Assembly: GCA_001275005.1 (NCBI GenBank)
Contig: JWZX01002211.1
Span: 1-23,435 of the forward strand
From: Chrysochromulina tobinii
Taxonomy: Eukaryota; Haptophyta; Prymnesiales; Chrysochromulinaceae
Direction of reading: 5' to 3'
Length of the DNA stretch: 23,435 nucleotides
The notes beneath the pieces are model-generated. The model ran no database searches, was not told the origin of the DNA, and was given only the letters and a program-made list of their open reading frames with translations. Shown here one piece after another: positions 1,762 to 20,576 of the stretch. Numbering within the stretch: position 1 is the stretch's first letter; every line of letters begins with the position of its first letter. The position numbers and the translations under genes were made by a program.

Positions 1762-1990
1762 ATTCTGTAGATCCGGAGATGAGCGGTCCGATCGTCTTTT
1801 AAATGTAGTCAGTCATCAGTCAGTCATGCATAGCTGTGTCGACTCCGTGACAGATCCTCGCTTTTACATCATCCATCGTGCGCTTTTCGGGGGATTGCAT
1901 GCTGATTCGGTGTAATTGGTCAATCTCACCAATTTTTTTGCGAATTATTGGCCACAAACACCTCCAACAACGGCCGCGTACGCCCTGACG
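1762..1990. promoter_or_regulatory. Intergenic region between the IQ-PDZ gene and the K+ channel gene
   Basis: This 229-bp spacer should contain the 3' end of the upstream transcript and the promoter of the channel gene. Visible structure: an 11-bp direct repeat (agtcagtcatc, 1807-1817 and 1818-1828) and an AT-rich stretch with a T7 run around 1930-1950 close to the channel ATG. No clear TATA box. The assignment as promoter is positional only. Confidence 0.35.
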
Positions 1991-4860: not shown

Positions 4861-7800
4861 TTAAGACGCGCCCACGCGCTGGAGGGCCTGGATTTGCTGC
4901 TTGTTCAGCAAGGGGGTCGACGACTCCGTCGTCGTCGCCAGTTGCTGGAGGATCTTGACCGAACTCATGCGCGCGCCCTCGTGGGCCCCCCGGAGCTTCT
5001 GGACGAATTCTTCGGCAAGGTCTTTCAGCTTGAAGTGGGCTATCCGCGACAAAGCATCACCTACGGCGCAGCTCACCTCAAGCCTAGGGTCCTCGAGCTT
5101 CTCGTACAGGGAATACATTTCGTTCTCCGTTGTCAAGTGCGCAAGCGCGCCAATAACCTCAGCCGCCTCTCGACGAACTTGCCATTTCTGGTTCTCCAGG
5201 CGCTTAAAAGCGGCGGCAATTTCCGGGAGAAGCACCTCCTGCTTCGCCTCGAGAACTGTCGGATCCAGCTTGCAGAAGAGCGTCTTCATGAGTAGCTTTG
5301 AGACCGATGCAGCCCTTGGCGTGTTCCGCGCCGAAGTCGCGCCTCGCTCGCGCTCGGCCTCCTTGGCAAAGGTGTCGACGATTCCTTCCGCATAGGCTAT
5401 GAAGTCCTGCTTCTCAAAACGCGCGGCAGTTGGAATGGTCGCTAGCCGCACTTGGGTGCTAGGGTCTTGCAGCAGCTGGACAAAGTCGCCTAGCTCGACA
5501 TACTGCCGGACAAGCTCCTGGTCATAGTCCAGATAGTGCCCCGCCAAAGTGACTGCCAAGGCACGCACCCTGTCGTCTGGGAAGCGGATGCACGAGATGA
5601 TTTGGGGGGTCAGGCTCGCAGTTTGCGCCACGAACTCGGTGGGGTCGATGAGGTTGATCAAGTCGATAACCATCGAGCGCACGTTGTCGTTGGGATCTAC
5701 TAGCATTGGCACGACCGAGCTCATCTTGCTGAGGATGATTGCGGGTTTCATCACACGCATCGTCTCGAGAACCGCGCAGCGCACATTTACGTCGTCGTCT
5801 TCCAGTCTACGGAAAATGAGGGGTGCTGACTGCTGCAAGATGGGCGTGAGCTTGGCCAGGGCACGCAGTCCAGACACACACTCCTTCCAGTCCGCACTGG
5901 CAAGTCGGTCAGTGAAGTCTGTCGCATGCGACGCGAGGGTGGCCGGGTCGAGCTTGCACAATGCCGTCTGCGCAGCGACGCTGACCGCCTCATCCGAATC
6001 CTCCAAGCTGCGCACGAGGCTCTTGGCTAATTGAGCAATCATGAGCGTTGGCATCATGCTCAGCAGCCACACAGCATCCCTGAGCTCGGCGGCTGAGGCC
6101 CCCGAAAGGTATTCGCCGATGACGGGATGGTACGGTTCGAGCGCCGGAGCTGGGATCTGCCCGAACACCGTCGTCAGCATGAGGCGCCGATAGCTGACGT
6201 CGGGATTCGACAGCGTGCTGACGATGCGCTCGGCATAGCCTGAGATCGTGCTCGCCTCCAGGCTGGCCATCGCTCGCGCGACCGCGCGCCGCACGTCCGT
6301 GCTCCGGTCGTCGAGCATCAGCGACAGAGTAGTAGCACAAAGGCCGAGATCCTTGGGGTCAAGAAGGCTGAGAATCTTGATGCCGGTGAGCCGTACCTCG
6401 CCGTTCGAATGCTTGAGCTGCGCGACCACGCTCGGGGCGTGGCGTGCCAAGCATTCCTTGTGCATCAGCGCCAAGACATCGACGACGCTCTGGCGCGTCT
6501 CGGCAGCAGGGTCGATCATCTTCTTAACCAGACTATCGACAAGTTCATCCATATCCGGCGTCAACAGTGGATGGACTTTGAGCTTGCCTGCCGCGCCGAG
6601 GAAGCGATCGAGAGCAGCCCTCGCTGCGATCCGCACATGAGGGTCGGCATCCGACACTGCCTGCACGACCACGGCTGCGTTCCCAACGATGTCCTCGATG
6701 GTGTAGTTGTTGAGCATCGTGGAGAACGCCCCGATTTCGGCCCGACGTTGCTCCTTCTTCTTCGAAGTCACGCGCTTTGCTGCGACGCGGTTTGCGGCGG
6801 CGTCCTTCTTCTTGGCGGCCTCCGTGCGAGCTTTGCGTGCCGCGGCGAGCCGTGGGGTTGCAGGCGCCGTGGGGTCGCAGGTCGCAGGGGGCGGAGGCGA
6901 GTGCGTCGGAGGGGAAAGTGCCCGAGGCGGCGAGCGCTCCCTCTCTGGCGAGACCTCCCTGATCAGCGAGTGGTAAAGGACCTCATCTTCGGCCTCCATT
7001 TGCGGCGGCTTCAGAGCTCGATCCTGAAAGGAGATCACATCCATCCGGACCTTGAACGCTTGCTCTTCGGCGAGGCGCGCAGACCGCGCCGAGCGAGCAG
7101 ATGTGACCTCCTTTACCCGTACCTTGATGTTTTCGATCCATGCGCGCTGTTCAACTCCTTTTCGCTCCTGCCAGGAAATCACGTCCATCTTGACCTTGAA
7201 GCCTGCCTCGAGATTCTGCAGCCTACGTTGCTCGACGCTCTGATGTGCCATCACTGCCGCGGTCCGTATCACGAGCTGACGCTGCTTGACAATCTGCTCG
7301 TGCATGCTCGCCACCTGCAGCCTCTTCTCGCCAAGATCCTTCCGCACTACTTTGACTTCCTGAGCTGCGACCCACTTCGCCTTGCGCACCCTGTCACTCG
7401 CGGCCTCCACCGCGGGGCTCGAGCGCTTCATCTGCAGCTTGTTCCATGGATCGACCCCCTGCAAGAGCCGCTCGGGCCGCTCTGTCTGCACCTTGCTCTC
7501 GTATTCCTGCTTGTCTTCGCAATCGTCGAGCAACGGCAGGGGCGGAGGCATGACCACTGGAGCTTCCGTCTTCTTCCTCATCAGCGGCTTCGTGGTCTGA
7601 GCGCCATCATGACCATCGATGAGGCCGAAATCGTCTTTTGGGATGTGTATGGGCTCAGAGGCTCCTGTGGTGGGATCAGACCCCTCATCAATCTTGGCCG
7701 ATTCATCCACTTCGGGAGCGGGTGCGGGGGCACTTTCCGCCTTGGCTGCTCCGACGCCACTGACAATTAAGTGTAAGGGGGAACTCGTCACGTACGACGA

Positions 7801-10800
7801 TGGCCCATCCTCGCCATATGCAACCCAGATATGGAGCCTCCACGCCCCGGGCGTGCTCGGGCTAGTGAAGTGCACGGAGAAGTCGTCCAGGACCCAGCCG
7901 CCACGGATGGTGCACTCTTCGCTCGGATGAGTCTTGAGTTGATGCGACCCATTCGACCAGCCCATGCCGATGCGCACGGGCGGCGTTCCCTCATCCTGGA
8001 CTGTGAGGCAACGGAGGATAAAATGCATGGGCTGGTTCATGCTAAGCACCTCATTGCTCTGCCAGTCGCAGTCGCGGATTTCAACAAATGCGGCATCGAC
8101 GACGCACTTCCCGGTGAGCCGCAGCTCTTTGACGACACTCGGCGGATACCCGCGCTCCTGCACACCCATGCTGATCTTCGATACAGCCTGTGCGATGTTT
8201 AGGTGCGATGCCATGTCAAGCACGCTTGACATCGAATCTGAAGATGTCAGGTCGAGGCGATGGTTAGAGATGTCAAGGTTGCTCAATTTTGGCAACTTGC
8301 CCGCCTGGAGAGCAACCACGAGAGCTTGAGCGCCTTTCTCATCGAGCCCGTAGTCCGCGAGGTCGAGGCTCGAGATAGCGCTCTCCTTATTGATGCGAAG
8401 AACGGACAGCAACGCCTCGAGCGACCGATTACCCGAGGCACTTTCGTTCGATTGTACGCGCAGCTTGGTGAACAAGGTGTTGGTGCTGACAAGGCCACCG
8501 ATGAGAGTCGCCGTCACCACTCCAAGAGCCTTGATAGAGAAGACTCCGGGCTCGAAGCCTTCGTGATGGATCTCGGCCCCTTTGAGGTACTGAACAGGTA
8601 GCGGTGGGTTTCCAGTGCGCTTACTCTTCTCGACTTGAAGCGTCGTGACACGCGAATTGTACTTGAGCACGCCTGCAAGAAGCACAGCTGCACCGACACT
8701 CAACGTATGTGTTGAGAAGTCCAAGGAGACGTCGTCCTCCCTGACGCTGAACGCGTCACAGCTCAGGTAGGCGACACGGCAACCTGCCTGCACTGCCTCG
8801 CCAGTGGAGCCGTCCAAGAGTGCATTTCCAATTGCGCGCATGCCATCCTCACCGATGGGGCTGCGATTGAGCGCAAGATGGGTAAGAGGAAGGATTGCAT
8901 TGCCCCGAATCGCAGAGGCCATCGACAGTCCAAGGTCTCGACCACCATCCCGAGATGTGGGGTGAACACTCACGTCGAGCCGCGTCAATGAGGCATGGCC
9001 GCAAATGGCACCACTCAGCAAGATGGCAGCAGCAGCATCGAGCCCCACCACTGTGACGGACGTTTCATCAAGCACGTTCAAGGTGCCCAGCTCGGGGCAA
9101 CTCTCCGAGCTGAAGCGGAGAGCCGCCCGACGGCCGCCTTGGTTTTGAAGCAAGGAGCTTCCGAGCATGCGCTTCGCACTCTCACCCAGCTCCACGCCGT
9201 GAAGGTCGATGTTCGTGAGACCGGCATTGGAACGAAGCCCCGTGGCTAACGCGCGTAGGGCTCGCGACGCATCACGACCTCCAATGCGGCCAATATTGCT
9301 ATTTGTCAGCGTGAGCGTTTGCAGGGTCTCGTTGTGTTTCAGCAAGCCAGCAACCAAACTGACTTCTGCTGCACCGAGGTCTGATGTGTTCAGAGCAATC
9401 GTCTCCTCCCGGATCATGATGGCGTCTGAGCGCCAGAAGTTGACGCCGCTTCCGCGATTCTCCAGGAGGGCACGGCCCAGATTCTCGGACGTGCGCAAGC
9501 CCAGCTTCTCACCCAGCAGCACCACTGTGCGCAACGACCGATTCACGCGCAGAACGTCGCACAGCGAAGTGCAACCCATTGGCCCAAGCTGGTTGTTGCT
9601 GATGTCGAGCTCTTTGATCTGCTTGTGGGATTGGAGTGCCGTGGCCAACGGTGCCATGCCCTCCTTACCGAGTGCCGTGTCGGCCAGGTTAAGAGCGGTC
9701 AGCTGAGCTCCGTTGCTGCTCCCAAGCAGACGGGCTGCCAAGAGGCCCGCGATGACGCCCATTTTCGTGCCCTGCAGGTTGAGAAGAGTGAGCGAGTTCA
9801 TGCTGCGCAGGCACTCGCCAAGTACAGCTCCCTCGGTCGCATCGATGGTCATTCCAGAGAGAGTCACACTACGCAGAATGGTATTGTTCTGGAGCAGCGG
9901 GAGCAAGCCCTTGCGTCCCACTGCAGTCAATCCAGAGTTCATCTCCTTCTCAAAGTGCCAGCTGGCCCGCCGCTTGGCTAACGCCTCGCCTAAGGTAGTC
10001 GAGCCGATCCGGCACACGTTTTGGTTGAACTGCTCGTTCAAGAATTTTGCTGCCGACACATCGTCGCACCACCCCACCCACGTGTTGACGTTGCGCAACA
10101 GGTCAGCGGCGAACAAGCCCTCCTGGATGGAAAGGTGCACAAACTCGTACTGTGCTGCCTGCTTGGCAGACTTGGCAGCCACGAGCTTGAGCAATGGCAA
10201 TGGCTTCTCCTCTTTGACGAGTGTATTCCACAGCGTCTGCAGCTCAGGCGTCTTCGTCAGGCATGCGCCCGCCTCGATCGTGGAGATCTCTCGCCGTCTT
10301 GCCATCTGGTTGGCAATGGCGACGGCACTGATGAGATCCTTGGCCGCGTCCTGGTTGACGAGCTTGCGGGCTGCCGCTGCGGTGGCAAGCTGATACAGCT
10401 CAAGTTCGCTACCGGGCAGGCCTTTCAACGAGTCGCTGTCTGCGCCGCAGATGATGACCAGCATCGAGAAGAGGACAGGTAACCTCGTTGCTTCGACGAG
10501 AAATCGGAAGATCCTTTCCATCTCCTCTGCGACATTGACCAGCGAGCTGACGGCAAGCCGCTCACGAAAATACGTGTACGGCTCTTGGCTGGTCTCAAGT
10601 TGGCGCGTCTTGACGATGGCCGTGTGGTTGACCTGTATGTCCACGTAGATGCTCACCTCCGTCGCCGGCAGCTTGGCAGACAGCTTGCCAGTGAATCGCA
10701 TGGTACGGTTGTGCGATGGGTCGAGGCGATCGAATCTGTTTGTCAGCTGAGCTGCTTCTATCCGCATCTGCCTCAGATTGCCGGCAAGGCCCGCAGCGAG

Positions 10801-13800
10801 TTCCGTGTCGAAGCCTTTTACAAGGATTTCGCACAGTTTTACCATCGCAGTGCTATCTGTGCAGAAGATCTTGGCTTTCAGAGCGTCGCGGATGAGCGTC
10901 TCGGGTAGCACGTCCGACGAGTAGCCGCCATACATCTCAACGGCATCGAAATGCATCTCAAAGGGGTCGCGGATGCGCCCGATGACGAGAGCGTCTTTGT
11001 CGTCGATCTGTTCAAAGTACTGGTCATCTACCTTGATGAAGCTGTCAGCCTTGAGGTTCTTTACGTCCAAGAAGGAAATTTCCTTCTTGCTAAACTCCTG
11101 CTTCATACGCAGGGCCTCTTCGAGCTGCTCACTGAAGATTTCGGTGCCGATCATCGGCCTCTCTGGACCGATTTTCTTCCACTTTGAACCAAGCTCCGGC
11201 GGTTTGGACCACAGGGCTTGGATTCCGCCTTGGACCTGGAGTGTCCTCGGCTCCAGTTCCACGCCTGCTTCCTTGAGCAAAAGGGTGAGCGTTTCCCTCA
11301 GAGCGGGGAGCAGAAGCTCGCAGAGCACGTAGAGCTCATCCGTATGTGCTACCACTCGTGCCCAAAATGTGCTCGCCATGAGATTGGGCTCTTTTTTGCG
11401 AGCGCGAAGGGTCATGACGCCGAGCTTGTATGCACTCCATGCATCCCCTTCCAGCCCCTTGGAAGCGTCCACTCCGCATCGCTGCCGTATGACCGCCTCA
11501 ATCTCGGCAGCCCCATTCGTACTCTTCTCGAGACTCTCTCGCGACTTGAGCAGATTATCCAAATCTTGCAAGATCTCAGGCTTCTCGGCAGGTTTCTTCC
11601 TCAAGTTCGGGTTTACGTTTTTATTCTTCAGACGCATGCGCTCAGCTTCTTCTGCGGCTTCTTCTGCCGGATCCTTGTAAACCCGAGGCATCAAAAATCG
11701 CGCGATCTGTAACAAGTACTTGGATTTTGGTGGGCCGTTGTGAGCAGCTAGGAGGCGCATCCCGTCGCAGGTCTTCAGGCGCATCCCGGGATTGAGCTTG
11801 CTGCCGGAAAGAAAGAATCGATCGGCCACTTCGAGGGATTCGATTCGAGCGCGCAGCTCTCGGGTGGGGAAATTGTGCAAGTATACGCTATCCTGTAGCC
11901 TCGCCATGTTGCAAATCGAGCGCATGTGACCAAAGAGCACGCTATTGCCAGTAGTTTCATCGAGAACCTTCCAACGCTGCTCGTCCGTCAAAGGTTGAAG
12001 TGCCACCATGATGAATCGTTCCTTGTACTGCGCTATCTCGAGTCCCTCAGGTCGTGTGGTCACAACGAGCTGATTTCCCGACATCAGCAACGTACCAAAC
12101 ACCCACGTCTCCACGTGCTCGCGGAGTCCGGCTGCCTCATCAAGACCATCCACCAAGATGGTGAGCTCGCGCATGACGTACGCTTGGAGCAGCAGCTGGC
12201 GCGTGCGACTCTGCTCCTCACCAGGGTACTTGAGCTCCAAGTACTGCTGCAGAAGCTGTGGAAATTGCGCGTCGTCCTCCTCGTCCTCATCGGTGATGAT
12301 ACTAGCTAGTGCCGACACATCCACTATCAGGGGCATGTTGCGTCCAATGACAAGGCTTGCCTTCGGCGCGACGTCCTTCAGTACATTGGCCAGCCCTGTG
12401 ATATTGGCGACATCAATGTCCGAGTATGGTGTTGGCTCCAGCAACGCCGGCGCTGCTGTGATATCCACAACAACGGCTGGGGCCATGAGATCGTCTTCTA
12501 CAGGCGCAGCCTCAGGCTCCGGGTCTGGCGGTCTTGTTCGCGGCGGGAGCACGATGGGCCCGTCGTCACGCAAGAAACGCAGGTTGTCGGGAGGGAGCCA
12601 TTTCCCCTCACACTTGACCCTCCAGATTCGCTCCATTGGGATCTCCACAGGCTTAGCGTCGGGCGCCATCACCCACACTCCTGCTTCAACCGTCGGCACC
12701 ACCGACTTCACGAGCAACTTTTTACGCGCGCCCGCCGCGCCGACAAAGTTGATCAGCCCGAGATGCAACTTCACCGCCGCTGCCGCCTCCGCATCGTCCT
12801 CGGGCAGCTCGTCGAGCGTCATCGCACTTGGTAGCAGCTCGATCACTTGGTAGACGCTTATCTCCTTGCCCAAGTCCTTATAATCGACGGAGCCTGCATG
12901 GGCCCAGCCGCCTCGCCCGTCGGGAATCGCCGGAAGCGGCGGCGGAGGTGGAGGCTCTAGCGCAGCTGGCGCGGGCGCAGGAGCTGGCGCAGGAGCTGGC
13001 TCGCCCGTGCCGAGCACGGCGGGCGGCTCTCCGGCAGCCTCCAACAGACGCTCTGCCAGCAGGTAGGCTGCCTGCTGGACGAGCCACGACTTTCCGCTTC
13101 CCGAGGGCGCTGAGATGAGAACAGGCAGCACCTCAATGACGCCTTGGGCGCGGTTTGGCGATGGGGCGAGAAGTAGAGCGGTCAGGTCACGGACGCTGGC
13201 GAGCTTCGTCCATCGCGCATAGGTGCGGCACGAGGAGTGCCACGTCGGCCCATCCCTCAAAGCCACACAGATACGCTGGTCCTTGATGTTCACCTTGTTG
13301 CTCGTCAAATTGTCCTCAACGAGACGAGTCGCCTCGAGCACGCTCCGGATGTACAAGATCCTCTGCTCCTCGTACTCCTGTGCGACCATCATGGGGTTGG
13401 CGATGTGGTTACACTCATTCAGGTCGACCGCAACGTTGAGCTCGGTCGTCGTCTCGGCAGTGAACTTGGACTTTGAGGGCTTCAGGATCGTCATGCGGAG
13501 CTTGTGGAGGCTTCCCTGAGCAAGCCCTTTGGCCTCCCCCTCGAGCACTGCAGCATTCCTCCATTCGCCATCGTACAGCACCATGAGATGGTCGGCAACG
13601 GTGTAGCGGGGAGTGGATGCCGGCTGGACGGTGGGCGGTCGAGGGTCCACGATCAAGACTCCCCCTCCATTGTCAATCTCAACGACGCACTTGCCCCCGT
13701 GCGTGCCGTGCAGCAAGCGTACCACACGCCCCAAGCTCAGCTCCGATGGTCGTTTGGTCGAGCGAACCGCCAGCCGCACGCCCTCGTTGACCGCATAGTA

Positions 13801-15876
13801 CAGATTGGGCGTGATGCGGATGATGGCCGATTGCATGCGCGCCGAGGGAGCACTTTCCATCGAGATGCGACCAGCCCGCGAGCTCGTGGGGACGCCTCGG
13901 GCGGTGATCGTCCCTCGCGGGCTGGTCGCATCTGGGGCCCATCGCAACCGAACGAGTAGACCTCTTCCAGCCGTGCTGACGCCATGCTCAGCCGCCTTGA
14001 ACCACGTTGAGGTGAGGAAGCGCACTCGCTCGGCAAAGCGCGTGCCGCCATCCTTCTTCGCGAGCACAGTGCCGATGACGGTATGGCTGTGTGCCGTGGT
14101 CAATGGGAACGAGAGGCAGGCAGGGACTGTGGACACATCACCCTCGATCACCTCAAACGCGGCGCCTTCGAGATCAAAGAGGAGCGTCGCATTCAGCCCC
14201 TCTGCCAGCTCGTGCCGGAGCGATGCGTACTGTTCGGACTCTCTCGAGTTTTCGGGAGGCGAAGCGCCGAGGCTCGTGCGCACAACGTGATGTGCACTCG
14301 GCTGGCGGCTGTGGACGACCGCATTCGGAGCGCTGCTCGGAAGTCCGACAACGGCTTCTGGCAGCTGGTTCACGGACGACTCCAAAGCTACGTCCAGGGT
14401 GGAGTGGTTGTACTCGGTCAAGTCTACCTCCAGCACCGCGTCATTCACCCAGATCGGAGGCACGACCCTCTCCAACCGCGGATCGTGCTCCGGCAGGTTG
14501 CATAGATCGTGCTCCCGCAGGCTGATCTTAGGCAACCCCGATGAGCTGCAGACATCGTCGACGAGGCCGTCGATGATCTCTTGGGCAGCCTCTTCGGCAT
14601 CCTTCCTCAACCACGTAGCTGCCCTCTCAGCCTCCTCTTCCTGCAGCCGCTTCATTTCTTGTTTGAGCTTCTTCATCTCCAATAGGTCGTTGGTCGAGGC
14701 GCGGGCGCGGTTCTGGTTAAGATGCGCCAGGCGCGCATCTATCGCGGCCATCTCCATTCCAGCCTGCTCCTCTACCTCTGTCCGAGCAGCCTTTTTCGCC
14801 GCTTGCTCTGCTGCCTCCTTTGCGCGCTGCTGGATCTCGACTTTTCGAGTGTGTACAACAACGTCCGCTGCGGTGCTGAGTTGATCTTCGTCATTCCAAT
14901 CGCCTGGCATCTTTTGCAGATCACGTACCGATGTCCAGATCAACGCCAGCACCAGCTGCACCTCCTGTGCGACTGCTGCAGATTCGATGGCGCGTGCCAG
15001 GCGTCGCTCTATCGCTTCGGTCTCTTTCGCGGCCATCTCGCCCTCAAAGTCACGTAGACGTGCAACAACGACGTATCGATTGCCAAAGCCCATCCACTTG
15101 CGCACACGCACCATTGCCCACACCCTATCTCCCGTCTTGTTTTCGTGTGGGACGAGCAGTAAGTCTCCTTCGGAGTACTGGAAATGCGCTGCTGTAGCCA
15201 CTGTCGATGGTCGCGGGTCGACAGGCAAGTCGCCAGCATTTTGGTCCAAACGAACTATGCACGTGCCCTTGTGAAGGAGCCGGTGGACCGTCCCAAAGCG
15301 CACCTCAGACTGAGACCTGGTCGGCAGCACTCTGATGCGGTGGCCCGGCGCCACGGCGTAAGCCAATGTGGCAAGCACCCGGAGTGCGAGTCGGTACGGC
15401 TGCTCGTCCAGGTTCCCTCGAGCCCGCGGCGGAGTGATGAGGCGGTCTTCTACCGACGCGTCCGCGGCTTTGAGAGCGCTCAATTTGCGTGGGCTAAGAG
15501 ACGGAGCCGTCCACTCTACGTATGCGAGGATGGCTCCGGTCTCGTCTGCGCCGTGCTCATCCGCGACGAGCCACTGAGGGTAGAAGCACACGCTTTTTGC
15601 AAAGGAGCGCCGCACGTGATTCGTCAGCTCGAAGACTGCAGCACCCTCGCCAGTCTCCAGCACGCCAATGAGTGTGTCGCCGAACTGCGTGTAAATTTTC
15701 AGGTAGCTGTTGACTGGCAAGGCCGGCACATCAGATCCATCGAGCACATCAAAGTCAGCGCCTCCGCAGTCGAGGAGCAGGACAGCCTCGCTGCTCGAGC
15801 GACCGTGCTCGTGGCGACCATGAGCATGTGCAGCTGCGCTCTTCGTCCCAAAAATGCTCCCACGGCTTGTGAACAT
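4861..15876 (-). CDS. Giant NLR-like STAND protein: duplicated N-terminal module, split NACHT, LRR array, coiled coil, HEAT repeats
   Basis: Uninterrupted 3671-codon frame. The first ATG is at 15876 (MFTSRGSIFG); the frame is open to 15921 but without an ATG. Residues are numbered from that ATG. About 30-275 and 550-830: two copies of a beta-rich module with shared VDPRPxTV and VDLxExNH-type motifs, the first followed by a coiled coil (276-454). Walker A is SAPSGSGKS with Lys929; Walker B is TILVDGLDEA with Asp1243; then VVTTRPEG (about 1268) and LQPLTDEQ (about 1293). These are the standard NACHT signatures. FVHLSIQEGLFAADLL (about 1910) is the conserved STAND winged-helix end motif. About 13 ribonuclease-inhibitor-type LRRs lie at 1990-2540, a beta-sandwich-like domain at 2576-2706, a coiled coil with basic, Ser/Pro-rich tail at 2816-3040, and HEAT-type helical repeats at 3043-3671. 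STAND NTPases act as nucleotide-driven sensor switches that oligomerise. A sensing or defence role is inferred, the ligand is unknown and no effector domain is recognised. No signal peptide or membrane helix is seen. Confidence 0.88.
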   Translation of the reverse strand: MFTSRGSIFGTKSAAAHAHGRHEHGRSSSEAVLLLDCGGADFDVLDGSDVPALPVNSYLKIYTQFGDTLIGVLETGEGAAVFELTNHVRRSFAKSVCFYPQWLVADEHGADETGAILAYVEWTAPSLSPRKLSALKAADASVEDRLITPPRARGNLDEQPYRLALRVLATLAYAVAPGHRIRVLPTRSQSEVRFGTVHRLLHKGTCIVRLDQNAGDLPVDPRPSTVATAAHFQYSEGDLLLVPHENKTGDRVWAMVRVRKWMGFGNRYVVVARLRDFEGEMAAKETEAIERRLARAIESAAVAQEVQLVLALIWTSVRDLQKMPGDWNDEDQLSTAADVVVHTRKVEIQQRAKEAAEQAAKKAARTEVEEQAGMEMAAIDARLAHLNQNRARASTNDLLEMKKLKQEMKRLQEEEAERAATWLRKDAEEAAQEIIDGLVDDVCSSSGLPKISLREHDLCNLPEHDPRLERVVPPIWVNDAVLEVDLTEYNHSTLDVALESSVNQLPEAVVGLPSSAPNAVVHSRQPSAHHVVRTSLGASPPENSRESEQYASLRHELAEGLNATLLFDLEGAAFEVIEGDVSTVPACLSFPLTTAHSHTVIGTVLAKKDGGTRFAERVRFLTSTWFKAAEHGVSTAGRGLLVRLRWAPDATSPRGTITARGVPTSSRAGRISMESAPSARMQSAIIRITPNLYYAVNEGVRLAVRSTKRPSELSLGRVVRLLHGTHGGKCVVEIDNGGGVLIVDPRPPTVQPASTPRYTVADHLMVLYDGEWRNAAVLEGEAKGLAQGSLHKLRMTILKPSKSKFTAETTTELNVAVDLNECNHIANPMMVAQEYEEQRILYIRSVLEATRLVEDNLTSNKVNIKDQRICVALRDGPTWHSSCRTYARWTKLASVRDLTALLLAPSPNRAQGVIEVLPVLISAPSGSGKSWLVQQAAYLLAERLLEAAGEPPAVLGTGEPAPAPAPAPAPAALEPPPPPPLPAIPDGRGGWAHAGSVDYKDLGKEISVYQVIELLPSAMTLDELPEDDAEAAAAVKLHLGLINFVGAAGARKKLLVKSVVPTVEAGVWVMAPDAKPVEIPMERIWRVKCEGKWLPPDNLRFLRDDGPIVLPPRTRPPDPEPEAAPVEDDLMAPAVVVDITAAPALLEPTPYSDIDVANITGLANVLKDVAPKASLVIGRNMPLIVDVSALASIITDEDEEDDAQFPQLLQQYLELKYPGEEQSRTRQLLLQAYVMRELTILVDGLDEAAGLREHVETWVFGTLLMSGNQLVVTTRPEGLEIAQYKERFIMVALQPLTDEQRWKVLDETTGNSVLFGHMRSICNMARLQDSVYLHNFPTRELRARIESLEVADRFFLSGSKLNPGMRLKTCDGMRLLAAHNGPPKSKYLLQIARFLMPRVYKDPAEEAAEEAERMRLKNKNVNPNLRKKPAEKPEILQDLDNLLKSRESLEKSTNGAAEIEAVIRQRCGVDASKGLEGDAWSAYKLGVMTLRARKKEPNLMASTFWARVVAHTDELYVLCELLLPALRETLTLLLKEAGVELEPRTLQVQGGIQALWSKPPELGSKWKKIGPERPMIGTEIFSEQLEEALRMKQEFSKKEISFLDVKNLKADSFIKVDDQYFEQIDDKDALVIGRIRDPFEMHFDAVEMYGGYSSDVLPETLIRDALKAKIFCTDSTAMVKLCEILVKGFDTELAAGLAGNLRQMRIEAAQLTNRFDRLDPSHNRTMRFTGKLSAKLPATEVSIYVDIQVNHTAIVKTRQLETSQEPYTYFRERLAVSSLVNVAEEMERIFRFLVEATRLPVLFSMLVIICGADSDSLKGLPGSELELYQLATAAAARKLVNQDAAKDLISAVAIANQMARRREISTIEAGACLTKTPELQTLWNTLVKEEKPLPLLKLVAAKSAKQAAQYEFVHLSIQEGLFAADLLRNVNTWVGWCDDVSAAKFLNEQFNQNVCRIGSTTLGEALAKRRASWHFEKEMNSGLTAVGRKGLLPLLQNNTILRSVTLSGMTIDATEGAVLGECLRSMNSLTLLNLQGTKMGVIAGLLAARLLGSSNGAQLTALNLADTALGKEGMAPLATALQSHKQIKELDISNNQLGPMGCTSLCDVLRVNRSLRTVVLLGEKLGLRTSENLGRALLENRGSGVNFWRSDAIMIREETIALNTSDLGAAEVSLVAGLLKHNETLQTLTLTNSNIGRIGGRDASRALRALATGLRSNAGLTNIDLHGVELGESAKRMLGSSLLQNQGGRRAALRFSSESCPELGTLNVLDETSVTVVGLDAAAAILLSGAICGHASLTRLDVSVHPTSRDGGRDLGLSMASAIRGNAILPLTHLALNRSPIGEDGMRAIGNALLDGSTGEAVQAGCRVAYLSCDAFSVREDDVSLDFSTHTLSVGAAVLLAGVLKYNSRVTTLQVEKSKRTGNPPLPVQYLKGAEIHHEGFEPGVFSIKALGVVTATLIGGLVSTNTLFTKLRVQSNESASGNRSLEALLSVLRINKESAISSLDLADYGLDEKGAQALVVALQAGKLPKLSNLDISNHRLDLTSSDSMSSVLDMASHLNIAQAVSKISMGVQERGYPPSVVKELRLTGKCVVDAAFVEIRDCDWQSNEVLSMNQPMHFILRCLTVQDEGTPPVRIGMGWSNGSHQLKTHPSEECTIRGGWVLDDFSVHFTSPSTPGAWRLHIWVAYGEDGPSSYVTSSPLHLIVSGVGAAKAESAPAPAPEVDESAKIDEGSDPTTGASEPIHIPKDDFGLIDGHDGAQTTKPLMRKKTEAPVVMPPPLPLLDDCEDKQEYESKVQTERPERLLQGVDPWNKLQMKRSSPAVEAASDRVRKAKWVAAQEVKVVRKDLGEKRLQVASMHEQIVKQRQLVIRTAAVMAHQSVEQRRLQNLEAGFKVKMDVISWQERKGVEQRAWIENIKVRVKEVTSARSARSARLAEEQAFKVRMDVISFQDRALKPPQMEAEDEVLYHSLIREVSPERERSPPRALSPPTHSPPPPATCDPTAPATPRLAAARKARTEAAKKKDAAANRVAAKRVTSKKKEQRRAEIGAFSTMLNNYTIEDIVGNAAVVVQAVSDADPHVRIAARAALDRFLGAAGKLKVHPLLTPDMDELVDSLVKKMIDPAAETRQSVVDVLALMHKECLARHAPSVVAQLKHSNGEVRLTGIKILSLLDPKDLGLCATTLSLMLDDRSTDVRRAVARAMASLEASTISGYAERIVSTLSNPDVSYRRLMLTTVFGQIPAPALEPYHPVIGEYLSGASAAELRDAVWLLSMMPTLMIAQLAKSLVRSLEDSDEAVSVAAQTALCKLDPATLASHATDFTDRLASADWKECVSGLRALAKLTPILQQSAPLIFRRLEDDDVNVRCAVLETMRVMKPAIILSKMSSVVPMLVDPNDNVRSMVIDLINLIDPTEFVAQTASLTPQIISCIRFPDDRVRALAVTLAGHYLDYDQELVRQYVELGDFVQLLQDPSTQVRLATIPTAARFEKQDFIAYAEGIVDTFAKEAERERGATSARNTPRAASVSKLLMKTLFCKLDPTVLEAKQEVLLPEIAAAFKRLENQKWQVRREAAEVIGALAHLTTENEMYSLYEKLEDPRLEVSCAVGDALSRIAHFKLKDLAEEFVQKLRGAHEGARMSSVKILQQLATTTESSTPLLNKQQIQALQRVGAS
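4864..6760 (-). other. HEAT/armadillo-type helical repeat region of the NLR-like protein
   Basis: Roughly the last 630 residues are built of 35-45-residue helical pairs with recurrent signatures such as LxxxDxxVRxxAxxAL, for example DPHVRIAARAALDRF, DRSTDVRRAVARAMASL and DDDVNVRCAVLETMRV. I estimate 14-16 units; the exact number needs a repeat-profile search. HEAT arrays bind protein partners. They are not the usual C-terminus of an NLR, where LRRs normally end the protein, so this part may be a second sensor or a docking platform. Confidence 0.8.
8230..9905 (-). other. Leucine-rich repeat array of the NLR-like protein
   Basis: About 13 units with the ribonuclease-inhibitor style LxxLxLxxNxL and alternating helical halves, for example LTLLNLQGTKM, LTALNLADTAL, IKELDISNNQLGPMG, LTNIDLHGVEL and ISSLDLADYGL. 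Unit lengths are irregular, with longer linkers between about 2220 and 2480, suggesting degenerate repeats. The array follows the STAND winged-helix motif directly, as in animal NLRs. Confidence 0.85.
11970..13115 (-). other. NACHT NTPase core, interrupted by a roughly 250-residue insertion
   Basis: Walker A lysine is encoded at 13090-13092 and the first Walker B aspartate at 12148-12150, 314 residues apart; most NACHT domains need about 60-90. The extra sequence begins with an Ala/Pro tract (PAPAPAPAPAALEPPPPPPLP) and contains a compact beta-rich segment, a second Pro-rich linker and then a return to NACHT-like sequence (ITGLANVLKDV, MPLIVDVSALA, FPQLLQQYLELKYPG) before Walker B. All nucleotide-binding signatures are intact, so the enzyme is predicted to be competent. 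Confidence 0.82.
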
Positions 15877-15969
15877 CCCGGCGCCCTGCTGCCCGCGCCG
15901 TGCGTCCAGCCACGCCTGCACAGGATGACAGGATGAAATCGGTTTTTTCGATTTTTGGCGTCCGCGCTG

Positions 15970-15981
15970 TGATTATATTTC
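15970..15981 (-). promoter_or_regulatory. Possible TATA-like element of the NLR-like gene
   Basis: On the minus strand the sequence reads AAATATAATC, an AT-only stretch in GC-rich DNA, about 95-105 nt upstream of the ATG at 15876. Position fits a core promoter with a 60-75-nt leader. No mapped transcription start supports it. Confidence 0.25.
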
Positions 15982-16021
15982 TCTCGCCGCGGCGCCGCGC
16001 GCGCGCAATGTGCGTTTGTCG

Positions 16022-16162
16022 GTAAAAAGACACCGGGGGGAGCCGGGCGCGTTTGTCGGTGAGGATGCGGTGCGTGAGATCTTACCGGTACTGCGCGCCA
16101 CGTTGCGATACGAGATACCCGAACCCCTCGTGACCCGTAAAAAGACACCGGGGGGAGCCGGG
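16022..16162 (+). repeat. Identical 26-bp direct repeats in the divergent promoter
   Basis: Copies at 16022-16047 and 16137-16162 are identical over 26 bp; both start gtaaaaagacaccgggg and end agccggg. Their period is 115 bp. They lie midway between the two divergent ATGs and could be paired protein-binding sites or simply a recent local duplication. Confidence 0.9.
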
Positions 16163-16307
16163 ACACACAGGACACACACGGGACACGCGGGCGCACAAGG
16201 GCACACGGACCACACAGACGAACCTCGTGACCCGTACATCGGCAAATTTGCCACCCGGAACCCGCCCCGACCCGCAACCGTGAACGCTCGCCTTGCGACC
16301 TCGGGCA

Positions 16308-19300
16308 ATGCGCGTGGCTTTGCTCGCGTCGCTCCTCTGTGGGACTTATGCGGCCTCCGATGCTTCCAAGCTCATCTCCGAAGCACGAGCGGCGGCCAAC
16401 CGAGGGGAGATCGATCGCGCCGAGCAACTCCTGCTGCAGGCGGAGGCGGACGCGCCAGGCGAGGCGCTCATGCTCAGGGCCAACCTTGCCGCCTTCGTGC
16501 GCAAGGACCAGACGCGAGCGTTGGCGTTATTCCGTGAGTCGGTGGCGGCGGACGCCACCCGCTGGGACGCGCGCTATTTCATGGGGCGCGTGCTGGCCGA
16601 TCAGCAGCGATGGGAAGAGTCCATCGATGCATTTGCATCCGCATCCGAGCTCAACCCTTCGAGTTCGGCAGTGCTGCTTGAGCTCGGGCAGGCGCAGGCT
16701 GCTCACGGGGACGGTGCGTTTGCGACGACGCTCGTGCGCGCCGCTGCACTCGACGTGCACAGCGCCCAGCCGCTGCTCGTGCTCGCGCAGACCGCGATGC
16801 AGCGTGGCCAGGTGGACGTGGCACTGAGGGCTTATGAGGATGTGAGCGAGCTGCATCCATGGCACGCGCAGCCGATGATGCAGCTGGCGAGCCTGCGCGC
16901 GACACTTTCCAGGGCGGCCGTAGGCACTCCCGACGCTGCGCTAGCCGCCGCCGCCGCCGCACGAGCAGGCTCACCGGCGATCTGCGAGCTTCGAGATGCC
17001 GCTCTGTCGCTGCAGCCTTCGATGACGGTGCCCGCGTCTGTCCTCGATGCATGCTCGATGACGGAGAGTAAGCGGCGGGAGAGCAAAGTGGCGCCACTGG
17101 CCGAGTACGCCGACGACGCCCTCGCCTTTGCCACCTCCGAGGCCGCGGCAGCTCATGCCAAAGCGATCATGGATGGCCCTTGCGCCTTTCTCAAGGAGTT
17201 TCCCTCGCTCGCCTCACGCGCCGTTCCGAGCGTGCGACCCGAGGGCGGCGGCGCTGGGCGGATGAACGCGTGCCTGGTGCAATTACCCGCAGGGCGCGCC
17301 GTGCGCCTCCGCGGCGGCGTCGGCGGCGTCGGCGGTAGCGGCGGTAGCGGCGGTAGCGGCGGAGGCGGCGGTGGTGGCGGCGGCAGCGGTGTGGTCGTGC
17401 CGAGCGGCTCTCATCTGATCGTCGAGTCCGACGGCGACGCTCCGGCGGTGCTCGACGCGGCGCAAGCCTCGCGCCACTTTCTGCTTGCGGGCGATGCGCG
17501 CCTGACGCTCCGTCGCGTTCACGTTCGAAACGGTCGGTCTCTCCTGAGCGGGGGAGGCGCCGTGTTGGTGCTCCCGGGCGCCGTCCTGGACGCGACGGAC
17601 GTGACCTTCGAGGGGAACCGCGCCGTGTTGGGCTCGGGCGGCGCGATCGCCTCGCACGGCGCGACGCTGCGTCTCAAGCGCGTCACCTTTTTGGGCAACG
17701 AGGCGACCCTGCGCGGCGGTGCCTTGCTGCACGCCTCCTACTCCGCCGCCGGCGCCGCTGAGGAGCTGCTTCACACCGGCTTGGGCTCTGTTCACACTCG
17801 CCCAGGCTCGTCACCGGGTTTGTCAGGTTCGTCAGGCTCGTCGGCCGGGTTCGTCATCGGCAGCAGCCCACGTGCCGCCACCGCCGAGCTAGCCGAGGTC
17901 GTCTGGGAGGCCAATCGGGCAGGGCGCGTCGTCTCGAGCGCGGACGTGATGCTCTGTAAGGGGGCGACGCTCCGACCCCACGTCCCTCTCCGACCTCTGC
18001 CTTGCATGCACGTGCTCACCACGGCGCGGCATCCTCCCTTCCCCACAGGTGCGGGGGCGACGCTCCGACCACGTCCCCGAGCGGAAGCTTGCGCGCTGAG
18101 TGAGTGCGACGAGCAGAGCGCCAGCAACGTGCTGGGCACTGTCATCAGCGCCGACGGTCACAGCACGGCCGACGGCAGCGGCACCGGCCCGCGGTTGATG
18201 CTCAGCGCGCCCAGCTTGATGGCGCGAGAGTGCTCCATGGAAGCGCTCGAGGTGCTCCACGGATTGCCACTGATTGCCTCTGATTGCCTCTGATTGCCTC
18301 TGATTGCTCCATGGAAGCGCTCGAGCTTCTTGAGTTCAAGGGCTTGGAACGGCACTGATGCACCTCGAGCTGATGACCTCCCTGATGACCTCCCTGACGA
18401 CCTCCCTGATGACCTCCCTGATCAGGTGCTCGAGCTCAAGGGATTGGAACGGCACGCTCTGCGGCTCCTCGAGCACGCGAGTGTGGCGGACCCGTACTCG
18501 CCCAACGCCCTCTCGTTCCACCTCAACTTTCTATACACTCATGCCCTCGACGATGCCGCCGCCGCGCGCCTCGCGGCCTTCGAACGCGCCGTACCGGGCG
18601 CCACCGCGCTCGTAGCGTCGCGCCAGATGCTTGCCAATGCGTCGGCCCCCATGCTGCACCAGCGCGCCCAGACTCTCAATGGCCAGGTGAGTGCCACTGA
18701 GTGACACTGAGTGCCACTGAGTGACACTGAGTGCCACTAAGTGCCACTGATGATGCCGCGCTGATAGCCGTGCTGATAGCCGTGCTGATTGCCGTGCTGA
18801 TTGCCGCGCTGATTGCCGCTGATTGCCGTAAGCTCCATGTTCCAGATAGCCATACGCTGATGCCCCTGAGTGCACCACTTTGGTCGCCTCATGCTATGGG
18901 CAGGTGGCGCGCATGCGCGAGGGCCGCCCGCTCGCCTCCGAGCGCTTTGGGACGCGGCTGGAGGCACAGGACGCCGCAACGTCCGCCTTCGTGCTGGCGA
19001 TCCAACTCCAGCCGACCAACGGCCAAATCTGGTTCGATCTGGGCACATCTCTCTTCTTCGCAGGCGAGTTGGATACGGGGCGTCCCTCGTCTCCCTCTGA
19101 AAGGCCTCCTCGTCCCATTCTAATGGCCTCCCTCATTGCATGCAGGCGAGTTGGAAGAGGCATCTCTCGCCTACGCGGCGGGCGCCCAGAATGACCCCAC
19201 TCACGATGGACTACAGGCCGAGGCCCAGCGCGCCGCAGCCTTTCCGCTCCCACCTCCCTCGGCCAATCAGATCGCTCACGAGCGCTTCGGGGCTCCTCCC

Positions 19301-20576
19301 ACACCTCGTCATGGCGCGAGCGTGCCGAGCGCCGTGTTGAGCGCCCACGAGCGCGCCCTCCTCTTCGACGCTGCCTTCGACGCGATCGAGCTGCCTGAGG
19401 GATCCTATGGCGCCCAAGCCGCCTCTGCGGACTTGCAGGTGATTGCCTCTGATTGCCTCTGCGGACTTGCAGGTGATTGCCTCTAATTGCCTCTGCGGAC
19501 TTGCAGGTGATTGCCTCTAATTGCCTCTGCGGACTTGCAGGTGATTGCCTCTAATTGGCTCTGCACACTTGCAGGCGGGCCCCGAGGCTTGAGTGACGTC
19601 CCTGGATGGCCTCCGATGGCCTCTGAGTCGCACTAATTGCCTCCCTCATTGCATGCAGGCGGGGCCCGAGGTCTTTGGCGCGGCCCCGCGAATTTTTGTG
19701 TCGCAGCAGCCTCTGCTGCCGCCGGCGACGTGCAAACGGTACATAGCGGCGGCGGAGGCGTGGGCGGCGCGCTCTGGCGGGTGGACCACCTCGCGCCACT
19801 ACTCAGGTGATGGCATCTGATTGCCTCTGATTGCATCTGATTGCGGGTGGACCACCTCCCGTCACTACTCAGGTGATGGCATCTGATTGCCGCGGATTGC
19901 ATCTGAATTGCCGCTGATTGCACCACCTGCCGCCACTACTCAGTCGACGACCGACGTCTCCCATATTTGGACGCCTCCCTAATTGCCTCCTTCATTGCCT
20001 CCCTCATTGCCTCCCTAATTGCCTCCCTAATTGCCTCCCTCATTGCCTCCCTCATTGTCAGTCCCGACGACCGACATCCCCCTCACCGCGCTGCCGGAGC
20101 TACTTCACGGCGACGGCTCGTTCACAGAGGCGCTTCACACCCTCCTGCTCCCCGCGCTCTCAGCGTGCTACCCAACGGCCGCGCCCGAGGCGGCGCGCCT
20201 TCGCGTGCTCGACTGCTTCCTTGTGCGCTATGACGCGGCCCATCAGGCGTCGCTGCCCATTCACACCGACCAGTCCCTCCTCTCCTTCACGATCGCACTC
20301 AACGACCCGTCCGAGTACCAAGGGGGCGGCACGTTCTTCCGGGGGCTCGGGCGGCCGGTGGATGCTCCAGCGGCGGGGCATGCTGTCCTCTTCCCCGGCA
20401 AGGTGGAGCACGGAGGCCATCCGATCTCGAAAGGCGTCAGGTACATCATCGTCCTCTTCATGGGTTACGAGGCCAACCGCATGAGCAACCGCAGCAGAGG
20501 CTACTCGCTGCAGCCACTGCGTGCGCAGGCGGCGAGAGGGGCGGGGCAGCGCTCCATTGATAAGGAGGAGCTCTGA
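16308..20576 (+). CDS. Secreted TPR / beta-helix / prolyl-4-hydroxylase-type 2OG-Fe(II) dioxygenase (seven exons)
   Basis: Proposed exons 16308-17955, 18049-18251, 18426-18686, 18904-19063, 19146-19438, 19659-19806 and 20062-20576 give a 1075-residue protein with frame kept at each junction. The start is the first ATG and opens a signal peptide (RVALLASLLCGTYA). Residues about 22-200 are TPRs. A Gly/Ser linker follows, then a Pmp-like parallel beta-helix at about 366-480 (repeated GGAx and TFxxN, for example VTFEGNRAVLGSGGAI). A second TPR-like stretch follows (GELEEASLAYAAGAQNDP across the exon 4/5 junction). The C-terminal domain has the HxD pair His972/Asp974 (LPIHTDQS), distal His1021 (VEHGGHPISKGVRY) and Arg1031 where prolyl hydroxylases use a 2-oxoglutarate-binding Lys. 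It should hydroxylate prolyl or related residues in the ER/Golgi; TPR plus hydroxylase recalls leprecan-type enzymes, but the beta-helix is unusual. Substrate unknown. The exon model is mine and lacks transcript support. Confidence 0.8.
17311..17393 (+). repeat. Gly/Ser-coding microsatellite-like tract
   Basis: Imperfect ggcggc/ggcggtagc repeats encode a GGVGGSGG-type flexible linker between the N-terminal TPR part and the beta-helix. It is in frame and a likely site of length polymorphism. Confidence 0.85.
17956..18048 (+). other. Intron 1 of the TPR/dioxygenase gene (93 nt, frame-neutral)
   Basis: Donor CT|GTAAGG and acceptor CCCCACAG|GT. The length is a multiple of three and the sequence has no stop in frame, so it could be retained as 31 extra codons. 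Its first 22 nt (17956-17977) repeat the first 22 nt of the next exon (18049-18070) with two mismatches. The exon before it therefore already reads into a copy of the exon after it. Confidence 0.6.
18252..18425 (+). other. Intron 2 of the TPR/dioxygenase gene (174 nt), with an internal copy of the spliced junction
   Basis: Donor CTCGAG|GTGCTC, acceptor TGATCAG|GTGCTCGAG. Inside are gattgcctct tandem repeats (about 18268-18305), then 18305-18325, identical over 21 nt to the end of the upstream exon (18231-18251). That runs straight into 18326-18355, a copy of the start of the downstream exon (18426-18455) with five mismatches. The copy would read SMEALELLEFKGLERH and then stop; the predicted spliced exons read SMEALEVLELKGLERH. 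A 12-bp repeat (tgatgacctccc, about four units at 18371-18418) fills the 3' end. Confidence 0.8.
18687..18903 (+). other. Intron 3 of the TPR/dioxygenase gene (217 nt), two tandem repeat arrays
   Basis: Donor GGCCAG|GTGAGT matches the consensus; acceptor TATGGGCAG|GTGGCG. The 5' part is a 10-bp array alternating gtgccactga and gtgacactga (about 18691-18747), which grows out of the donor itself. The middle is a 12-bp array of ctgatagccgtg/ctgattgccgtg (about 18754-18829). Unlike the other introns, no clear copy of the exon junction was found here. Confidence 0.8.
19064..19145 (+). other. Intron 4 of the TPR/dioxygenase gene (82 nt, GC-AG type)
   Basis: The 13-bp sequence caggcgagttgga occurs at 19061-19073 and 19143-19155 and spans both splice sites. 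Only CAG|GCGAGT with GCATGCAG| gives standard ends, making this a GC-AG intron with an otherwise good donor. Splicing restores a TPR-like reading GELEEASLAYAAG. A CTAAT branch-point-like word (19120-19124) lies 22 nt from the acceptor. The last 26 nt match the end of intron 5 with one mismatch. Confidence 0.75.
19427..19562 (+). repeat. Four 34-bp units, each carrying the exon 5 end plus its splice donor
   Basis: Units start at 19427, 19461, 19495 and 19529. Each begins gcggacttgcag, which is the last 12 nt of exon 5, followed by gtgattgcctct and a second decamer. The first unit straddles the real exon-intron border. Each later unit also ends in TTGCAG, an acceptor-like site, so donors and acceptors are repeated at 34-bp steps. 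Confidence 0.92.
19439..19658 (+). other. Intron 5 of the TPR/dioxygenase gene (220 nt), with exon-end repeats and junction copy
   Basis: Donor TTGCAG|GTGATT, acceptor GCATGCAG|GCGGGG, phase 0 on both sides. After the 34-bp array, 19563-19587 is a 25-nt copy of the spliced exon 5/exon 6 junction (three mismatches), followed by a stop. The intron ends with ctaattgcctccctcattg then CATGCAG, almost the same as intron 4, with CTAAT 22 nt before the acceptor. Confidence 0.82.
19807..20061 (+). other. Intron 6 of the TPR/dioxygenase gene (255 nt), with exon-end copies, junction copy and 12-bp array
   Basis: Donor CTCAG|GTGATG, acceptor ATTGTCAG|TCCCG, phase 1. The end of exon 6 (19779-19806) is copied at 19845-19872, followed by the same gtgatggc donor context, and in shorter form at 19922-19943. 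The last copy is joined directly to 19944-19962, which resembles the start of exon 7 (20062-20081) with a small gap. A 12-bp array of attgcctccctc/attgcctcccta (about 19973-20058, some seven units) ends at the acceptor. Confidence 0.82.

Follow-up and report, generated by a model that had tools for sequence, protein, structure and literature searches.

How does a single gene come to carry introns that hold copies of their own spliced exon ends? The origin of new spliceosomal introns is a long-standing problem, and the mechanisms proposed for it mostly leave little evidence behind. The window analyzed here, a 23,435-nt stretch of Chrysochromulina tobinii DNA, is one contig (C1105) of the assembly that we searched (53.15 Mb, 2,253 contigs); the main text of the C. 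tobin genome paper gives one intron per gene on average. The gene considered here has six. From their sequence we conclude, with a probability of about 0.8, that these introns are introner-like insertions with long, variable target-site duplications, and that two types of insertion together with tandem amplification would explain the junction copies, which we call ghosts.

The host gene and the ghosts in its introns

With the six introns removed, the host gene (Table 1) reads as a single open frame of 1,075 aa. Pfam finds TPR_2 and 2OG-FeII_Oxy_3 in the product, the latter at E 4.1e-5 and 24.9 bits, below the cut-off of 27, and the named relatives among its 12 protein matches include Chrysotila carterae and Prymnesium parvum. 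The junctions fall at residues 549, 617, 704, 757, 855, and 904. In an alignment with five of the 12 matches (P0002, P0003, P0004, P0006, and P0008), all six are continuous, with no added residues there; P0006 has a one-residue gap directly after junction 1, and P0004 has three additional residues a few positions past junction 5. Thus, the introns sit seamlessly in a conserved protein, and the gene model appears sound. The relatives may be intron-free or may be spliced themselves; a protein alignment fits both. Intron 1 (93 nt) is in frame and without a stop, within a stop-to-stop frame of 16284-18293. A metagenomic ORF from a JGI protein cluster of 28 member sequences (P0011) is nearly identical to the start of the host gene, runs through intron 1, and terminates inside intron 2.

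The surroundings of the gene hold a few further features. The string gtaaaaagacaccggggggagccggg is present twice at 16020-16165, just 5' of the host gene. A frame of 3,703 aa, stop to stop, adjoins this intron-rich gene on the minus strand (4861-15972) and has NACHT and HEAT repeat matches, as well as a leucine-rich repeat match below the cut-off. An open frame on the plus strand at 1916-3667 has a strong ion channel match (Ion_trans_2, E 6.3e-31). A tRNA scan of the whole 23,435-nt stretch found none.

For the ghosts, we took the best local alignment of each intron to the last 30 nt of its upstream exon joined to the first 30 nt of its downstream exon. Introns 1 and 4 have one-sided ghosts, in which the downstream exon start is repeated at the donor: that of intron 1 begins at 17960 and scores 20.5 over 27 columns with a single 2-nt gap, and that of intron 4 scores 13. 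The intron 4 repeat is exact over 14 bp when the GCAG is included; the first 10 intron bases are identical, and the next ∼17 are diverged or gapped. Introns 2, 5, and 6 have two-sided ghosts that are internal and cross the junction, with scores of 42 (18302-18355, 54 columns, 6 mismatches), 23 (19559-19587, 3 mismatches), and 29.5 (19919-19962, with a 2-nt deletion). In introns 5 and 6 the upstream exon end also recurs without the downstream exon start. Intron 3 has no ghost by local alignment with its own exon ends (best score 6). Dinucleotide shuffles of the intron never reached the observed score for introns 1, 2, 5, and 6 (0/500 each), reached it once in 500 for intron 4, and always did so for intron 3 (500/500). 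Random 60-nt pieces of the gene's own coding sequence reached it 25, 6, 1945, 24, 28, and 9 times for introns 1 to 6 (of 2,000 each); this control kept pieces overlapping the junction itself, which could account for the small counts, and so the dinucleotide shuffles are the cleaner control. A preliminary description of this DNA had reported exon-end copies in introns 1, 2, 4, 5, and 6, at the donor in introns 1 and 4 and internal in the others; alignment and shuffles uphold this, and its ghost coordinates and mismatch counts were essentially right.

Table 1. Host gene and the predicted parts of its introns (positions in the window)
Feature	Position	Strand	Basis
Host gene, TPR with 2OG-Fe(II) oxygenase (prolyl 4-hydroxylase-like) C-terminus, seven exons	16308..20576	+	open frame, Pfam, haptophyte relatives
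Host-gene exons	16308-17955, 18049-18251, 18426-18686, 18904-19063, 19146-19438, 19659-19806, 20062-20576	+	
Intron 1, putative left copy of target duplication, predicted to give the GT donor (now GTAAGG)	17956..17986	+	alignment to 18049-18077
Intron 1, putative inserted family A element: 26-nt core 18003-18028, pyrimidine tract, CACAG	17987..18048	+	core 53x exact in genome; 17987-18010 also at C319
Intron 1, putative target duplication, exon copy	18049..18077	+	alignment
Intron 2, donor-side arm, (GATTGCCTCT)n array	18252..18304	+	TRF
Intron 2, two-sided ghost: exon 2 end copy (18231-18251) and exon 3 start copy (18426-18455)	18305..18355	+	alignment
Intron 2, acceptor-side arm, (CTGATGACCTCC)n array, ends GATCAG	18356..18425	+	TRF; similar stretches on other contigs
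Intron 3, without ghost, dispersed tandem-repeat content	18687..18903	+	alignment, TRF; similar stretches on other contigs
Intron 4, putative left copy of target duplication, 10 nt exact then diverged, GC donor	19064..19090	+	alignment; right end by eye
Intron 4, putative inserted family B element, ends CCTCCCTCATTGCATGCAG	19091..19145	+	exact end signature
Intron 5, donor-side arm: 34-bp unit of exon 5 end and donor sequence; array 19421-19575, 4.6 copies	19439..19558	+	TRF
Intron 5, two-sided ghost	19559..19587	+	alignment
Intron 5, acceptor-side arm, family B end GCATGCAG	19588..19658	+	exact end signature
Intron 6, donor-side arm: 66-bp unit of exon 6 end and donor sequence; array 19777-19943, 2.4 copies	19807..19918	+	TRF
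Intron 6, two-sided ghost	19919..19962	+	alignment
Intron 6, acceptor-side arm, (GCCTCCCTCATT)n array, ends TCAG	19963..20061	+	TRF; ∼85-bp stretches elsewhere, up to 95% similar

Dispersed intron families and probable long target duplications

What lies between the exon copies appears to be dispersed sequence rather than local duplication. The 26-nt core of intron 1, which defines family A, has 53 exact copies genome-wide (a first, different family A pattern gave 4 matches). Introns 4 and 5 have the 3' end CCTCCCTCATTGCATGCAGG in common, which defines family B and has 78 genome copies. Family C is defined by the end TTGCCTCCCTCATCAG, with 1,074 copies, followed by GT in 726, by GA, GC, or GG in 221, and by a base other than G in 127. 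Reversed controls gave 0 for each family. Introns 1, 4, and 5 thus belong to dispersed families by exact signature, and other contigs carry repeat arrays similar to those of introns 2, 3, and 6. Four family C copies are located in unrelated conserved genes. Altogether, the three families form many similar copies at unrelated gene positions, as introners do, and the copies are putative introns.

The families have recurrent 3' ends (...CATCAG, ...GCATGCAG, and ...CCCCACAG). In families B and C, many interiors consist of tandem repeats with units of 10-12 bp, such as CTGATTGCCT (seen by eye; measured by TRF in the whole stretch), and we take the CTGAT within this type of unit to resemble a branch site. 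These interiors are minisatellites, so slippage shapes them too. By eye, family A has TGCATGCAA on the 5' side of its core, and family B has the string in reverse at its 3' end. The 5' start of the intron 4 element (CTCCCTCTGA) resembles that of the element at L019, a likeness seen by eye among the matches listed in an all-against-all BLAST of loci that was dominated by minisatellites. The repeats of intron 3 (18687-18903) are found on a number of other contigs at 78-95% identity, and this intron may be an older member of the process behind the others. At four loci (L071, L083, L088, and L095) the family A core has no pyrimidine tract or AG and forms repeated units with flanking sequence; these sites are perhaps outside introns.

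At other loci, we asked whether the start of the downstream exon recurs upstream of the element. We fixed the repeat start at the base after the element's AG, called an ungapped score above 9, and used cross-locus pairs as the control. The family A sample comprised the 31 of 44 loci with a recognized acceptor (the other 13 and the window were excluded). For family B, 30 of the 78 places gave 22 loci, with the first copy per locus kept and overlapping copies, copies with insufficient flank, and the window dropped. The family C sample drew on the first 100 places listed among the 726 GT-followed copies: 40 contigs contributed a single copy each, in most cases their first (C298 was left out). The downstream exon start was repeated upstream at 19/31 family A loci (12-45 nt) versus 5/930 cross-locus pairs, at 9/22 family B loci (12-50 nt) versus 5/462, and at 26/40 family C loci (12-43 nt) versus 10/1,560. 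These lengths describe detected cases, the threshold being blind to repeats shorter than ∼10 nt and the 12-nt lower limit being set by the test. In all, duplications were called at 54/93 loci, which supports the intron-generating process suggested in the preliminary description and shows it to have worked across the genome. The anchored test called none at the remaining 39/93 (12 A, 13 B, and 14 C). By eye, a few of these appear to have a diverged or gapped copy, and some may have duplications too short for the test. An earlier free-alignment test placed 12/36 family B and 20/39 family A loci above the control 99th percentile; its controls were inflated by related loci, and the anchored tests are the ones that we count.

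The 20 single family C insertions give the clearest measurements. Their duplications have a median of 22.5 nt (range, 14-40), their inserts a median of 56.5 nt (38-132), and their introns a median of 81.5 nt (56-152). Identity between the two copies is 0.80-1.00, with 6/20 at 100%, and duplication length is not significantly related to insert length (Spearman -0.28, p 0.23). Long exact duplications include 43 nt at L132, behind an earlier element end, 36 nt at L122, L066, and L101, and 33 nt at L119 and L062. The position of the duplications can be read to the base, and it is not confined to sites with GT. Among family C copies without a following G (20 sampled of 127), 5/20 score above 9 versus 18/380 controls, and four of these five (L145, L147, L148, and L149) have repeats of 17-33 nt directly after the AG, above the control 99th percentile of 14.0. 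L148 has neither a starting GT nor an AG ahead of the left copy. Such flush repeats at non-G sites indicate that selection for GT does not alone set the duplication boundary; the AG end looks like the true end of a mobile unit.

Does removal of the left copy and the insert leave a sensible gene? At five joined loci, picked from 24 for their conserved appearance, the joined pieces match AcuI/YhdH (L122), the replication factor C large subunit, RFC1 (L135), a phospholipid-translocating P-type ATPase, P4-ATPase (L136), a GH3 glucosidase (L110), and a disulphide oxidoreductase of the thioredoxin/glutathione reductase type (L092), as 75-100 aa fragments that fall below whole-protein cut-offs. For L122, L135, L136, and L110, alignments to solved proteins cross the junction with no gap there (L135 has a one-residue gap four residues ahead of it). 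Removing the left copy and the insert thus appears to restore a conserved protein at four independent loci. At all 24 joined loci, the frame stays open past the junction through the whole right piece, a weak result, since these pieces are short. A search of the assembly itself for intron-free versions of 12 joined loci returned only their own split halves and, from other contigs, a short repeat covering query 342-385.

Gene-model-free scans are swamped by coding and minisatellite repeats. Over 96 kb and the window, repeats bounded by AG|GY showed no excess (30, versus 34 for CG|GY and 30 for TG|GY), and neither did AG in a second scan of 96 kb in 11 stretches (33, versus 88 for CT, 81 for CC, 47 for CA, and 38 for AT). 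By eye, these scans held about three clear cases outside the window (L050, L054, and L057).

Two probable insertion types and tandem amplification

One-sided duplications of the downstream exon start would account for introns 1 and 4. A mirror type, which repeats the end of the upstream exon and has the GT within the element, is found at L065 (by script) and at L098 and L100 (by eye). At L097, both types occur at one junction with one element family, duplicating ACGCCGGTCGGACGAGCGCAG upstream and at least GCGGTGCGGCTCTTGCACTGGCTC downstream. This architecture appears to be that of host-gene introns 2, 5, and 6, and two-sided ghosts would accordingly break down into two one-sided duplications. 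Tandem units of 34 bp in intron 5 and 66 bp in intron 6 (by TRF) cross the exon-intron border, which points to later amplification, and tandem duplication is also seen at loci such as L087 and L054. Tandem duplication therefore looks like a second step after insertion. Elsewhere, another gene (L026, near position 1500) seems to have an intron with an internal copy of its exon end joined to a few exon-start bases (by eye); the differences in this copy are mostly at third positions.

These observations suggest the following sequence, in which the splicing as drawn and the order of events are our inference. A short dispersed element (38-132 nt in the 20 single family C insertions) with a recurrent intron 3' end would insert into coding sequence and duplicate a long, variable stretch of its target (12 to ∼45 nt as detected). 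Where the duplicated target starts with GT, the left copy would become the donor and the element's AG the acceptor, so that splicing would remove the left copy with the element and restore the former mRNA. In the mirror type, the element would bring the GT and the duplicated upstream exon end the AG. Both types at one junction would leave a contiguous exon-exon ghost inside the intron, and the repeat-flanked units could afterwards multiply in tandem.

How does this compare with known systems? In the available text of Gozashti et al. (2022, PMC9860276), characterized introner families have duplications of 3-9 bp, and that of a haptophyte, Chrysochromulina sp., has one of 4 bp and carries the 5' splice site. 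The introns described here resemble introners in that similar introns are dispersed over unrelated genes and in the predicted source of the splice sites, one brought by the element and one by the duplicated target, whichever way round. They differ from the introners in that text in their variable duplications of 12 to ∼45 nt (as detected), up to about half of the intron, in the 10-12 bp tandem-repeat interiors of families B and C, and in the two-sided ghosts. Rogers and Bendich (2025, PMC11782384) surveyed 213 introns of all classes and, in the text available, report border repeats that average 11.4 bp within a range of 4-30 bp and are 71-100% similar. As here, such repeats are read as insertion footprints; unlike here, the introns of that survey, as far as that text goes, are not one set of related insertions. 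A literature search that covered few subscription papers and no bioRxiv preprints turned up no description of haptophyte introners with long duplications.

Possible routes of insertion

By what chemistry would the elements be copied? Target-primed reverse transcription of a 5'-truncated excised intron RNA is our first choice, though somewhat less likely than not. LINE-type target-primed reverse transcription has a constant 3' end, variable 5' truncation, and variable target duplication. We prefer it because a recurrent 3' end is combined here with variable insert 5' ends and variable duplication lengths. The search patterns included the 3' ends, which partly builds in their constancy; the flush repeats at non-G sites support an end at the AG. 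The genome holds 26 matches to reverse transcriptase domains, 22 of them above cut-off. Unlike the LINE case, the insertions here come with no identified LINE tail or source element, and the templates would be spliceosomal introns. Donor-type (mirror) insertions do not fit this chemistry simply, as they would need truncated 3' ends. One can go further and regard excised spliceosomal introns as the mobile unit itself, though we consider this doubtful: an AG-ended, 5'-truncated RNA would be reverse transcribed by LINE-like machinery, the target duplication would supply a fresh donor, and scraps of the previous host exon would remain as a mark of pedigree (C319 to the host gene; C673 to C2166).

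A DNA-based route, which we judge rather unlikely, is the capture of fragments of existing introns at staggered double-strand breaks with long overhangs, where fill-in would duplicate the target and selection would keep cleanly spliced fragments. It has a precedent in the Daphnia neointrons attributed to staggered breaks, which, in the available text of Li et al. (2014, PMC4202315), have repeats of 4-12 bp. As in Daphnia, an exon end is repeated at the opposite intron end and events recur at one site, and break capture would suit the variable duplication lengths, the variable insert 5' ends, and the occurrence of both donor-type and acceptor-type insertions. However, the detected duplications exceed the Daphnia range (family C median 22.5 nt, range 14-40, with a threshold that hides repeats below ∼10 nt), the inserts are a few families sharing a 3' end, which is not how that text describes the Daphnia inserts, and the ends lie flush with the AG at some sites lacking GT as well.

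A non-autonomous DNA transposon family whose unusual transposase makes long, variable target duplications seems quite improbable. The families are dispersed, as such a family would be, and TGCATGCAA, from its two positions in families A and B, could be one terminal repeat. However, we know of no cut-and-paste transposase that makes variable duplications of 12-45 bp, and those of characterized introners are 3-9 bp.

The preliminary description had favored a different history, in which a once-uninterrupted gene underwent tandem duplication of short exon segments and splicing removes the surplus. The exon ends are indeed duplicated, and the sites were probably uninterrupted earlier, but dispersed elements lie between the copies, and the introns are not merely surplus exon copies. 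As the origin of the introns, tandem genomic duplication in which every copied exon segment brings an AGGT is now very unlikely, even though exon sequence lies in direct repeats and introns 5 and 6 contain arrays, where we keep tandem duplication as the second step. Duplication of a simple AGGT segment predicts an AG within both copies; an AG precedes the left copy at only a minority of loci (10/26 for family C, 4/19 for family A, and 4/9 for family B, some of these being the ends of earlier intron units), which argues against plain tandem duplication. In the available text of a review (PMC3443670), tandem genomic duplication with AGGT likewise duplicates exon sequence and leaves the mRNA unchanged, as predicted here; the difference is that the insert and the acceptor here come from the element, not from the duplicated segment. 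Such a duplication would place both splice sites inside the AGGT-bearing segment, whereas here the duplicated stretch opens with the GT and the AG belongs to the element. The alternative once offered, that reverse-transcribed spliced mRNA was reinserted into its own introns, would yield the contiguous junction copies of introns 2, 5, and 6 and L097, but it is scarcely credible and no longer needed, given that one-sided duplications are common, that introns 5 and 6 repeat the upstream end without the downstream start, and that L097 resolves into two one-sided duplications.

With insertion and target duplication as the preferred reading, one route to new introns becomes unusually easy to study in C. 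tobinii. The long, often perfect duplications mark insertion points and splice-site sources, and carried-over exon scraps may reveal which intron was copied into which gene; together, these make the RNA-versus-DNA question testable. The long duplications would also permit precise intron loss by recombination. We have two cases of carried-over strings in total. At up to 2 mismatches, GTCGGAGGAGCAGGTACATTGATTGCC has two places at C673, one of them with 2 mismatches, and otherwise occurs only at C2166; its first part resembles the C673 exon end (GGCGGAGGAGCAG), and the C2166 copy, as read by eye, has the donor GT before it and the next exon after it (L098). The intron 1 string TCTCCGACCTCTGCCTTGCATGCA, again at up to 2 mismatches, occurs only in the host gene and at C319, a likeness that may be chance microhomology. 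At C319, TCTCCGACCTC is part of the downstream exon sequence, and the upstream duplicate of that sequence has it with a single change (L064); L090 has a version with a small insertion.
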